From positions 1 to 64,000 of the forward strand of contig JAGWBX010000021.1 of NCBI GenBank assembly GCA_021295655.1: 64,000 bases of DNA, in the 5' to 3' direction. The notes under the pieces were generated by a model. It had not been told where the DNA came from. It searched no databases and saw only the letters and a program-made list of their open reading frames with translations. Position 1 is the first letter of the stretch, and every line of letters begins with the position of its first letter. This document shows positions 2,543 through 43,547 of this stretch, piece by piece. The translations under genes were made by a program, and so were the position numbers. The stretch is from Candidatus Latescibacterota bacterium. Lineage in GTDB: Bacteria; Latescibacterota; UBA2968; GCA-2709665.

Positions 2543-3162
2543 TTTAACAATCCTCTATCGAGTGGAGTCTGTCAACCTGACCTGCGGATCTTTCCAAAGC
2601 GTCCCGTATTCGACGATATTTTCGTCGAATACTCCATACACCCGACTTAAATGCCCTCGATGTTCCATGTGCTTAGGGCCGACTCTCCGTCTGCATCCTC
2701 GTGTGAGTTCTACCGACCTGGGTACGGTTCGTCGTCGGGACAATCTTCGAACACTTCGCCGTCGTGCAATGAGTGTAAAATGTCTTCGAAACTAAAGGTG
2801 GTCGTTCCTGGTTTATTCAACTACATGCATTAATAATGTCTCGGTTTATCAACGACTTGTCTCCATTCTAATGTCAACGCTTGCGTCGTGTTAGGAGCCG
2901 GACGGATTTTGTCCCGTTAAAACGGTATCATGACGTTGAAGCCTTGTCAAGTAAAGGATTCGCACGAGAATCCAGAAAACATCCGCAATTTTCGCGAACG
3001 CTGCCGAAACGCTTGACCTGCGCTACTACGAGACATGCAATCTTCCTTCAAGGAAAAGAAATATACTGCACATCAGTATAGTATTTTTGGGGTCCATTGT
3101 CAAGGTGGGCATTCGAAGAATGCGGAAGGATGCACGGGATGGACGCGTAGAGAACCGGGATC

Positions 3163-5334
3163 TTACAGGTGTTCATCGAACCAATCGAGCATGGCATTGC
3201 ACAGATGCCTGAGCTTCGTGTACTCCCACTCGGGCGTGAAATGATCCGCGCCTTCGTATTGGACCCACTCCACCTTCCGTCCGAGCCGCGACAGGCCGTT
3301 ATACACTTCCTCGGCCTGTTTTGCTGCGGCTGTGTCCTCGCTGCCGTTGACCAGCAGTAACGGCGCCTGAATTGCCTCGGGGTCGCCCCAGGGCGGCTTT
3401 CCCATTCCTCCCTGTCCAGACTCGAACCAGAACCAGTCCTGCTGACCGTAAAAACTCGTTAAGTTCACGATCGGCGCGTTGCATACGGCGGCGCTGAAGA
3501 GCTTCGTCTGAGTAAGGAGCGCCAGCACGGAATAAGCACCGTAGCTGTGACCGTAGAGTCCGATTCGATTCGGATCTATGGTTCCCCGTTCGATCAGATG
3601 CCGGATCACTGGCGTTGTCCTGGCCGCAATCTCGATCATCGGGTCGTGCCCCGAGAGTTCGGTATCCGGGTACACCACCGCGTAACCCCGGTGAGCGAGA
3701 AAGTGGGCATTGTCCTCGGATGGCGTTTCCGTGAATCCAAATCTGTTGATGTCCTCCGAATACGAGTAATCGCCATATACGACGGTGATAGCCGGCACGG
3801 GCCGCTTTCCATCGAAATCCGGAGGCAACATCAGGGCCGCCTTGACGCTTCCCTTTCCGTCTGCCTCGAACTCGACAAGCTCCGGCGTGCCCATCCTGAT
3901 CGCATCGACCGAAGGCAGCGGATCGAAAATGCGCCTGACGTCGCCGCTTCGACTGATTCTGATGATTTCAGGAGGTTTTGTTGCGGTTTCCCGCGCGATG
4001 AATATCGTACCGCCGTCGCTCGACGCCTCGTTCAGCAACGTGCAAGACTGGATGGCTCCGTCTAACTCGAGCATCTCTCGAAACGCCCCGCTTTCAAGGT
4101 CAAGTTCAGCGATACAGAGCGTCTCATCCTTTCGAGTCACGGCGAGGGGCACCTCGCACGTATTCACCACTGGATTTTCTTGCGGTAGCAGCCATGTCGA
4201 CACCCTGTATCCGTCCGGTACCGCCAGTTTTCGTTGCGCCCTTCCGGATGCTTCGAAAACCCAGATACCTCCAGGTACCGGCAGCAGAATTTCCTTCGAA
4301 TCCGGGCGCCATCTTGGAGGCGCTTCGTAGAAGGCATCGATTTTCCTGATGTAAGCACCGCTGTCACCCACAATATCGATCGGGTCGCTGCCTCCATCCT
4401 TCTCAACCACGTGGGGATGTCCGGTTTTCTCCCCTCCCCATGTCAAATAGCATAGCCTCGTGCCATCGGGCGACCAGTTGAATGCGGTCGTGTACGATTG
4501 CACGATGCCGCTGGCGGCACACACAGTCTTCCTGTGGGCGATATCTGTTACCATCAAATCGCAGACGTTCCCACCGGATACTTTATTGTGACCCTTTATG
4601 CGCAAACAGGCAACGTGGTTTCCGTCGGGAGACGGGCGCCAGCATCGAAACGACCAGTTCTCCGCCAGCACCTCGACCTCCCCTGAACTCACATCCACAG
4701 CGACGAGGTTCCCCCTTTTCTCCCAGTTGTCGATCGGCACGACAACAGATTCGGCAGATGTCCGTCGCTGAATTCCATTCTCGCCGGAATCTCCTGCGCC
4801 GGCGGCATGTTTGCCGGGATCTGCTTTTATCAGAATCCGGCGTCCGTCGTTTGTCCACCTTGGGACCTCAAAGCCATAATCGCCGGCGTAATTTACGTTC
4901 TCATACACTTCCGTCGTCGCTGTCTTTCGGTCCCATATCGCCAGGCGGGCCGGATTGTCTCTTTTCTGAATGTACGCTGCGAGACGGCAGCCGTCCGGAG
5001 ACCACTGGGGCGCCCACGAAACTTCGGTTTCACCGAAAGGATGCACGGAATCCGATTCCTCGGTATCGACGACAACAACCGAAGGCCTCATGACTTCCTG
5101 CGGCACGCTTGAATGCTCTCCGGATGTCAATACCGAACGGCTGCGGCCGACGGCAACCATCGTAAGCGCCAGAAAACGCCCATCGGGACTGAGATCAAAT
5201 GGTATTCGCGTAGCCGGGACTTTCAACTGCAGCAGATGTTCCACCGTAAAACGCTCCATAACGGTACTCGCTTGATATGTTCTGGCATCATCGCGCGGGA
5301 TCGATCGCATGGAATATACCGGCTTTTCGAACAT
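3163..5334 (-). CDS. S9 family peptidase (prolyl oligopeptidase-like, beta-propeller plus alpha/beta hydrolase)
   Basis: WD40-like WSPDGxR repeats; GLYGHSYGAYSVLALLTQT (GxSxG nucleophile), LLVNGSEDTAA, EGADHF. Confidence 0.9.
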   Translation of the reverse strand: MFEKPVYSMRSIPRDDARTYQASTVMERFTVEHLLQLKVPATRIPFDLSPDGRFLALTMVAVGRSRSVLTSGEHSSVPQEVMRPSVVVVDTEESDSVHPFGETEVSWAPQWSPDGCRLAAYIQKRDNPARLAIWDRKTATTEVYENVNYAGDYGFEVPRWTNDGRRILIKADPGKHAAGAGDSGENGIQRRTSAESVVVPIDNWEKRGNLVAVDVSSGEVEVLAENWSFRCWRPSPDGNHVACLRIKGHNKVSGGNVCDLMVTDIAHRKTVCAASGIVQSYTTAFNWSPDGTRLCYLTWGGEKTGHPHVVEKDGGSDPIDIVGDSGAYIRKIDAFYEAPPRWRPDSKEILLPVPGGIWVFEASGRAQRKLAVPDGYRVSTWLLPQENPVVNTCEVPLAVTRKDETLCIAELDLESGAFREMLELDGAIQSCTLLNEASSDGGTIFIARETATKPPEIIRISRSGDVRRIFDPLPSVDAIRMGTPELVEFEADGKGSVKAALMLPPDFDGKRPVPAITVVYGDYSYSEDINRFGFTETPSEDNAHFLAHRGYAVVYPDTELSGHDPMIEIAARTTPVIRHLIERGTIDPNRIGLYGHSYGAYSVLALLTQTKLFSAAVCNAPIVNLTSFYGQQDWFWFESGQGGMGKPPWGDPEAIQAPLLLVNGSEDTAAAKQAEEVYNGLSRLGRKVEWVQYEGADHFTPEWEYTKLRHLCNAMLDWFDEHL

Positions 5335-40950: not shown

Positions 40951-43272
40951 CTATCTTCCTGCGACCCGGGCCACCCAGATGCTGAATTCGTAGAGCAACA
41001 CCAGCGGCAGCGCCATCATCAGCTGTGAGATCGGATCCGGAGGCGTGAGCAGCGCCGCCAGGATAAAGCCGATCACCACTGCATACCGCCGTCCCCGGCG
41101 CATCCGCTGCGCGGTCAGCAGGCCGATCCGGCTCAGAAAGAACGCCGCGACGGGAAGTTCGAAAACCACGCCGAAGGCAACCAGCAGTCGCAACACGAAA
41201 CCGATGTAGAAGCCGATATCGAACTGGGGGTCGACGCCGGTCCCTTCGCCGATCAGAATAAGGAATCGAAACGACAGCGGCACCACACTCAGATACGCGA
41301 TGGCGCCTCCCAGGACAAAACAGATCGACGATGAGAAGACGATGAATGTTACGTACCGCCGCTCGGTTGTCAACAGACCGGGCGCCACGAAGACCCACAA
41401 CTGATACAGGAGGACCGGCAACGCCAGGATTGCGCCGCCGACAAGGGCAATCTGAAGTTTAACGAGAAACATCCCCATCGGTTTCAAATATATCAGCTTG
41501 ACAGGCGGCTCAACCGGCGACACGCCCAACAGCTTCAGGACCGGGGTCGCTTCCCGGACCGGCAAGACGAGCCACCCCAGAATGGCGTCCGAAGAAACCC
41601 CGCAGATGATGGCGCCCACCGTGAGCGCCGCCAGCCCCTTCAATAATCGCCAGCGAAGTTCCTCCAGGTGATCCAGAAAGGGCATCGCTTTGTCTTCGGC
41701 GGCCGAAGACGGTTCAGGCGCGCGATCTGCAGACGTGGCGGAGTCAGGGGGCAGAATGGAATGGTCCGTATCTACCGTGTGACGGCGGAATGCCAAAAAC
41801 ACCAGAACCGCGCCCAGAATCAGGCACAACTGCGCGAACAGGTCTCCGTATCTCGTATAAAACGTCTTTGCGGTTCGGGGCGCCACCCCTTGCGTCAATA
41901 CTGCCGGATGGAAGATCCCCGTGGTTCCCGACTTCCGGCCATAGGCGTCAATAAACGTGGAAACGCCCGTATTCGCGCAGCGTACCACGGCCCGGCGGTT
42001 CTCTATGGCGCGAAACACCGCGGCCTCGGCATGCTGGAAGGGACCGGAAGATTTGCCGAACCAGCCGTCGTTGGTGATGATCACCAGGAATTCAGCGCCC
42101 AGGTCCACAAATGACCTGACAAATCCAGGAAAGACCGAATCGTAACAGATCAGCGCGGAGAATCTGGCGTCAGGGCCATTGAAGACCGTACGGGTCTCTC
42201 CGGAATCCCAGTTGCCCCCCACGAATCCGCCGCCGGTGAACCGGATCTTTCGCAAGAAGGGAAGTATCTCCGGGAACGGCGCCCGTTCGCCGAACGGCAC
42301 CAGGCGAGTCTTGTCGTAGTATCCGGAGATCCCTTCTCCGGGCGCGAACAGAAAAGAGGAGTTGAAAACCTTCACCGGGTCGCCAACTTCCAGTCTGTAT
42401 GCGCCCGTAAAGACGTAGATCCCGAGCGAGTCCACCATGGCCTGCACCCGCTCGCGATGATGCCGGTACAGTTCCCCTTCAAGGTAGCCGACCGCCGTCT
42501 CGGGCCACACCACAAGCCGTGCCCCCAGCCCCGCGGCTTCCGCGGTCATCGGCTTCAGTTTGCCGAAATTATAGTCGAATCCCCGGTATTCCTTCGCCAC
42601 GGGCGGCATATCCGGCTGGACCACGCCCACGGGCACGGCATGTTCGTCCGGATCGTTCTTCAGCGCCAGATACCCGTTCGCCGCGGGCCCCGTGAATAGC
42701 GCGGCCAATGCAACTGCCCACACCCGGCGGCGCGCCCGGTTCCTCCAGAGCATCAGTACGCTCAGATTGACAAGCACAATCCAGAACGACACCCCGTACA
42801 CGCCCGTCACTTCCGCATATTGTATCAGCCACAGGTAGGCCGTCTGCGAATTTCCCAGCACCACCCAGGGAAACCCCATGTCTCCCAAAGCGTTGAAATA
42901 CTCAAACCCGACCCAGAGGAAGGGAGCGCTCCACATCCCCGCAATACCGTACCGCCTGACCACGCGGGCGAACGTCCACAGGAACAGACCGCGAAACAGG
43001 GACATGTAAATCGCCGCCCCGGCCATGCCGGGCGGCGTGATCCAGCCGATCCAATAGAGTGTCGCTCCGTAGAAAAAAATCCCGTGGGCGAACCCCGCGC
43101 CGAATGCCGCCCGGCCCCGCAGCCGTTGGGCCGAAACCAGCAGCGGGATCAGCGCGACGTAAGACAGGAAACCAAGGGGCAGGGGTGGAAATGCCGCGCC
43201 AAGGACAAGGCCCGAGACCGCCGGAAACAACACCATCCATTTCCAGTCTGTGCCCTGCCGTGCCTCGGTCAT
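40951..43272 (-). CDS. Fused apolipoprotein N-acyltransferase (Lnt) - TatC
   Basis: Lnt part (~41686-43272): PPLPLGFLSYVALIPLL, LVVWPETAVG (E), YYDKTRLVPFGERAPFP (K), SALICYDSVFPGFVR (C), FLVIITNDGWFGKSSGPFQHA. TatC part (40951-41685): MPFLDHLEELRWRLLKG...LLYQLWVFVAPGL...FGVVFELPVAAFFL...RRYAVVIGFILAALLTPPDPISQLMMALPLVLLYEFS. One uninterrupted ORF; upstream in-frame start at 43410 also possible. Confidence 0.93.
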   Translation of the reverse strand: MTEARQGTDWKWMVLFPAVSGLVLGAAFPPLPLGFLSYVALIPLLVSAQRLRGRAAFGAGFAHGIFFYGATLYWIGWITPPGMAGAAIYMSLFRGLFLWTFARVVRRYGIAGMWSAPFLWVGFEYFNALGDMGFPWVVLGNSQTAYLWLIQYAEVTGVYGVSFWIVLVNLSVLMLWRNRARRRVWAVALAALFTGPAANGYLALKNDPDEHAVPVGVVQPDMPPVAKEYRGFDYNFGKLKPMTAEAAGLGARLVVWPETAVGYLEGELYRHHRERVQAMVDSLGIYVFTGAYRLEVGDPVKVFNSSFLFAPGEGISGYYDKTRLVPFGERAPFPEILPFLRKIRFTGGGFVGGNWDSGETRTVFNGPDARFSALICYDSVFPGFVRSFVDLGAEFLVIITNDGWFGKSSGPFQHAEAAVFRAIENRRAVVRCANTGVSTFIDAYGRKSGTTGIFHPAVLTQGVAPRTAKTFYTRYGDLFAQLCLILGAVLVFLAFRRHTVDTDHSILPPDSATSADRAPEPSSAAEDKAMPFLDHLEELRWRLLKGLAALTVGAIICGVSSDAILGWLVLPVREATPVLKLLGVSPVEPPVKLIYLKPMGMFLVKLQIALVGGAILALPVLLYQLWVFVAPGLLTTERRYVTFIVFSSSICFVLGGAIAYLSVVPLSFRFLILIGEGTGVDPQFDIGFYIGFVLRLLVAFGVVFELPVAAFFLSRIGLLTAQRMRRGRRYAVVIGFILAALLTPPDPISQLMMALPLVLLYEFSIWVARVAGR

Positions 43273-43547
43273 CGTCCAGGTTCCTCCAGACCCTTCCGCC
43301 GTTTCCCTGGCGGCCGCGTTTTCCTGTTTCAGGTTGCGGGACAGAAAAACCGGTTGGCCGCGGGCAGCGAGTCCCGCCAACCGGTCCATTGAACCCCGCC
43401 ATAAAATCAAGGTTAGAATATACGCGAATGAACCCTGTTGTCAAACCGGTAGCAATCCCCCTCAACGGCTTGACATGCCATGGGAAATTCCATAATTTCC
43501 GTCCACCGTTCTCCGGTCTCCAACCCCTTTACTACGGTCTCCTTCCA

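Follow-up and report, generated by a model that had tools for sequence, protein, structure and literature searches.

Lipoprotein N-acyltransferase (Lnt), which attaches the final fatty acid to lipoproteins, is known structurally from E. coli and P. aeruginosa (PDB 8b0p and 5n6h), where an eight-helix membrane part is ordered with a nitrilase-like domain bearing the catalytic Glu, Lys and Cys and the supporting residue E343. The window protein described here, encoded within the 64,000-nucleotide stretch of DNA that was analysed (the window), shares this fold, domain order and set of residues; it differs in having a C-terminal TatC, Asp where E. coli has E389 and a residue other than Trp in place of W237. 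TatC, the central component of the exporter of folded proteins, is represented by the structures from Aquifex aeolicus (4hts) and Nitratifractor (TatBC, 9e02), whose six-helix fold and N-terminal DHLEELR segment recur in the window protein, except that its TatC is preceded by Lnt and a linker, so that the N terminus is not free. The Tat core is built of three TatC subunits, and TatB helices pack close to where TatC helix 1 begins (PMC13323110).

Lnt and TatC are normally separate proteins, and each has been found in one chain with another partner. In the Lnt–Ppm1 protein of Mycobacterium (Rv2051c, BCG_2070c; PMC3850990), Lnt is likewise fused to a protein of envelope biogenesis, with split versions in relatives, but the partner there is a polyprenol-mannose synthase and not a translocase. 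A TatA/B–TatC protein encoded in a single frame (genome G086) is a further natural case of TatC preceded by a membrane-protein partner, there a Tat component and not a maturation enzyme. Tat lipoproteins are known, but how Tat export is linked to the enzymes that modify lipoproteins has, to our knowledge, not been established.

Organization of the fusion gene

On the minus strand of the window, the frame at 40951–43410 is open throughout, with no internal stop, and holds both a complete Lnt and a complete TatC (Pfam LNT_N, CN_hydrolase and TatC; Table 1). Scores for both NCBIfam equivalog models lie well above the curated cut-offs (Lnt, TIGR00546, 319 bits against 132.9; TatC, TIGR00945, 197 bits against 132.7), which bears out an earlier sequence-only reading of this frame as a single-ORF Lnt–TatC fusion. 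That reading took the TTG at 43410 as the start, which is probably not the start codon. Translation most likely begins at the ATG at 43272, for a product of 773 residues, because a better ribosome-binding site precedes it and homology begins shortly after it. The consensus scan that located the promoter-like site found three such sites, with 0.9 expected; a match of this kind does not by itself establish a working promoter.

Table 1 Features of the lnt–tatC fusion locus, in window coordinates
Feature	Position	Strand	Evidence
Promoter-like TTGACA-16-TATATT	43417..43444	−	Consensus scan, 11/12 matches
In-frame upstream extension from TTG, probably untranslated leader	43273..43410	−	Most homologues unaligned here
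Shine–Dalgarno-like GGAGGA	43282..43287	−	Sequence; 9 nt before ATG at 43272
lnt–tatC fusion gene, likely CDS	40951..43272	−	773 aa, from ATG to TAG; alignment with relatives begins just past this Met
LNT_N (PF20154), Lnt transmembrane part	42763..43215	−	Pfam
CN_hydrolase (PF00795), Lnt periplasmic catalytic domain	41935..42627	−	Pfam
Catalytic Glu codon (E. coli E267)	42499..42501	−	Invariant, 60 aligned Lnts
Catalytic Cys codon (E. coli C387)	42145..42147	−	Invariant, 60 aligned Lnts
Asp codon at E. coli E389 position	42139..42141	−	Glu in every Lnt examined outside the window's order
Ser/Ala/Pro-rich linker, ~30 residues	41686..41775	−	AlphaFold pLDDT ~40; relaxed selection
Junction ATG (former tatC start or internal Met)	41683..41685	−	Upstream SD complementarity absent, −0.3 kcal/mol
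TatC part, junction Met to last residue	40954..41685	−	PF00902 at 41005–41673, 227 bits; Foldseek

The Lnt half is modelled confidently by AlphaFold and matches E. coli Lnt (8b0p) in Foldseek with a TM-score of 0.82. The catalytic Glu, Lys and Cys read earlier from the translation are all present, as is E343, and all four are invariant among 60 aligned Lnts. The TatC half, modelled with medium confidence (about 70), matches Aquifex TatC (4hts) with a TM-score of 0.86 and has the complete six-helix fold attributed to it before. Inspection of the translation by eye locates the conserved acidic residues of the TatC N-terminal segment (DHLEELR) and of the first cytoplasmic loop (APGLLTTERR). Both halves are under purifying selection, with dN/dS against congeners of 0.13–0.17 for Lnt and 0.07–0.08 for TatC, and both are likely to be functional. 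Selection is much looser on the linker that joins them, which is Ser/Ala/Pro-rich, as first described, and is predicted to be disordered.

The N terminus of TatC lies in the cytoplasm. Because both termini of E. coli Lnt are cytosolic (PMC5500890), a cytosolic Lnt C terminus meets a cytoplasmic TatC N terminus, and the joint is topologically natural. The last Lnt helix would return to the cytoplasm, to be followed by the flexible linker and then by TatC. A covalent TatC dimer has been reported to be fully Tat-active in E. coli (PMC5102672), so a membrane protein joined to TatC should be tolerable. The product is best explained as a single two-domain inner-membrane protein in which a flexible cytoplasmic linker connects an eight-helix Lnt to a six-helix TatC.

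Genome context and Tat lipoproteins

Contig C94, to which the window belongs, comes from a 4.6-Mb assembly in 104 contigs. The nearest relatives of this genome, which are metagenome assemblies (RHO bins), bear the label Gemmatimonadota, and more distant members of the order are labelled Latescibacteria or Latescibacterota, the latter being a phylum of the FCB group. The genome has one copy each of Lnt, TatC, a TatA-family protein, Lgt and LspA; both the Lnt and the TatC function therefore rest on the fusion protein. The lone TatA-family gene sits on a different contig, consistent with the earlier remark that no tatA or tatB adjoins the fusion. The same-strand neighbours encode a Na/Ca exchanger and a sugar epimerase/dehydratase, and an aminotransferase gene lies upstream on the opposite strand; these genes say nothing about the fusion.

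In addition to this one Tat partner, the window genome encodes Tat signal peptides. Counted through TIGR01409 matches only, there are six, and in at least three of them the Tat motif is followed by a lipobox: a DctP-like solute-binding protein, MsrP (408 bits) and a 532-residue frame without an assigned identity. Genome G007 likewise encodes a lipobox MsrP and a lipobox DctP-like protein. Tat lipoproteins thus co-occur with the fusion in the same genome, in numbers too small for a claim of enrichment. MsrP is normally a soluble periplasmic Tat substrate. Since the lipobox is present in the MsrP of both the window genome (L167) and G007 (L184), MsrP is probably a lipoprotein in the window's order.

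Distribution and history of the fusion

The search covered 47 genomes of the class (Latescibacterota), a group of uncultured bacteria, and 64 of the phylum, and the locus was readable in 41. In all 41 of these class genomes lnt is followed directly by tatC on the same strand, as a fused gene in 30 and as separate adjacent genes in 11. The fusion is found in 5/5 members of the window's family (f1), 15/15 of f2 (two of these loci run off the contig end), 0/1 of f3 and 10/20 of f4. The fusion is therefore carried by each of the 20 readable genomes in the window's order (f1 and f2), across diverged genera; the possibility raised at the outset, that relatives always encode two separate proteins, does not describe them. 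In families f5–f9, lnt and tatC lie on different contigs.

No other Lnt–TatC fusion appeared among the matches listed (the best ~150) in a domain-wide sample of 291 and 386 genomes, and no description of one was found in the open-access literature. The fusion is genuine and, as far as these collections reach, previously unreported, as first supposed, with both parts belonging to known families.

Where the class members are unfused, the two genes overlap out of frame, sit close together in different frames or share a frame broken only by one TGA or TAG, so that one small change suffices for fusion. The 11 loci in which lnt directly precedes a separate tatC imply that adjacency came before fusion. 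A tree from the concatenated Lnt and TatC domains (49 rows, 706 columns) requires four changes between the fused and separate states, as do 298 of 300 bootstrap trees. The AU test rejects a single fused clade without later change (p-AU 3.6e-6) and also the grouping of all fused f4 rows (p-AU 3.0e-5); one fusion shared by g10 and G045 is not rejected (p 0.106). If the genes were adjacent at the outset, the simplest course of events has three or four fusions, and there appear to be at least three fused clades; a fused ancestor would demand more splittings.

The fused clades have unrelated linkers: those of f1 are of SILPP type and those of f2 acidic, g13 has Asp/His/Glu repeats, and the G045 linker is rich in Gly, Ala and Pro. 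The g13 linkers (L091, L097, L098, L106 and L109) consist of DHDPE units and vary in length; these repeats are possibly metal-binding, or simply unstable.

Possible role of the fusion

From the fusion alone, the sequence-only reading proposed coupled maturation of Tat-exported lipoproteins. Part of this stands: the fusion exists, is conserved and recurrent and makes topological sense, and Tat lipoproteins are present. The two joined steps are, on the other hand, not consecutive. The reaction order is export, Lgt, LspA, Lnt (PMC3850990), and a direct handover from TatC to Lnt is not supported because Lgt and LspA, both encoded elsewhere, act in between. Coupled maturation is kept here as a hypothesis.

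The best reading, to which we give a probability of about 0.5, is a Tat core that carries its own N-acyltransferase, the benefit lying in co-localisation and fixed stoichiometry and not in handover. Together with the single TatA-family protein, the TatC half would form the Tat receptor core, which in known systems is trimeric, and each core would then carry about three Lnt domains with their active sites toward the periplasm. On leaving the translocase, Tat lipoproteins of the MsrP-like and DctP-like kinds would find Lnt next to them; once the free Lgt and LspA had acted, N-acylation would follow close to the exit. Lipoproteins that leave through Sec, normally the majority, would diffuse to the fused Lnt. 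Against co-localisation speak the small number of Tat lipoproteins, the unfused state of half of the readable f4 genomes and the altered acceptor-step residues described below. A recurrent natural Lnt–TatC fusion, with unfused sister genes as controls, makes a link between Tat export and lipoprotein maturation directly testable.

The main rival, which must be taken seriously and seems to us quite possible though less than even, is a neutral or expression-level fusion of adjacent genes whose halves act independently. Genes arranged like the unfused ones need only lose a stop or acquire a frameshift to be joined, the linkers of the fused clades are fast-evolving as well as unrelated, the intervening Lgt and LspA steps leave no direct chemical link, and the joined ends, both cytoplasmic, would tolerate fusion. 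Such an origin accounts less readily for the retention of the fusion throughout the window's order and for its presence in several clades.

The acceptor side of the Lnt half

Every one of the 20 readable members of the window's order has Asp at the E389 position. Glu occupies it in f3 and f4 members (fused or not), in the other families and in second Lnt copies, and likewise in all 46 Lnts aligned from beyond the order. At the W237 position the order members in the alignment have Glu or Ser, and the window protein has Glu; this position varies in other Lnts too and so does not define an Lnt family. In E. coli, Lnt E389A still forms the acyl-enzyme and does not rescue loss of Lnt (PMC5500890), and W237 is required for the second step only, not for the first (PMC6971011). 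With both positions changed, the acceptor step of Lnt in the window's order may be shifted, and the canonical activity of this Lnt, two of its acceptor-step residues being altered, is not certain. The order-wide E389D exchange points to a specific question on the acceptor side of Lnt.

On the strength of these two positions, the Lnt half could have been repurposed in the window's order, keeping the acyl-enzyme and changing its acceptor, for example to prefer Tat lipoproteins or another amine. We regard this as unlikely: Glu to Asp is a conservative exchange, W237 is not strictly conserved elsewhere, the protein is the sole Lnt of its genome and, since fused f4 members retain Glu, the exchange is not required for fusion. 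Similarly doubtful is an elaboration of the co-localisation reading into a dedicated maturation station, with three Lnts per Tat core and an acceptor site retuned (E389D, W237 replaced) for folded, cofactor-bearing Tat lipoproteins.

Integrity of the junction

A fused frame could still yield separate products if translation began internally at the junction Met, or if proteolysis of the disordered linker released free TatC. Nearly all fused members have the junction Met, and in some it is preceded by strong SD-like stretches (G005, −7.8 kcal/mol; G045, −11.1 kcal/mol), so that internal initiation may occur in some relatives. Compared with the remaining internal ATGs, junction Mets have a slight advantage in score (p = 0.001, for sequences that are not independent). 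The window gene itself lacks an SD-like site at this position, leaving an internal start there unsupported, and fused G022 has ATA in place of the ATG; split products thus seem a rather improbable outcome. An assembly or sequencing error that joined two genes, conceivable for sources that are mostly metagenome assemblies, is ruled out for practical purposes by fused genes in 30 genomes from many projects, among them the single-contig assemblies G007, G010, G037 and G046.

Other TatC and Lnt variants

The TatC proteins of f4 (for example, L091 and L102) carry an insert of roughly 30–60 residues after helix 1, which is missing in f1 and f2. Elsewhere, TatC occurs in long frames in G124, G086, G061 and G062, none of which contains Lnt; that of G061 is merely a long frame overlapping another gene. 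In G124 (L159, minus-strand coordinates 3008–5098), TatC runs in frame into a signal peptide and a protein that resembles outer-membrane-assembly proteins (LptD/OstA-like by eye). The minus-strand frame of L152 (G062, family f5; 553 aa) passes from an iron–sulphur, RnfB/ferredoxin-like part straight into TatC (CVGCGIC-DMPFLDHLEEMRW), and is possibly another TatC fusion or else a truncated neighbour. In G035 (L155, 316–2700, plus strand), a second-copy Lnt bears an α/β-hydrolase-like (lipase-like) tail within one frame of 795 aa.
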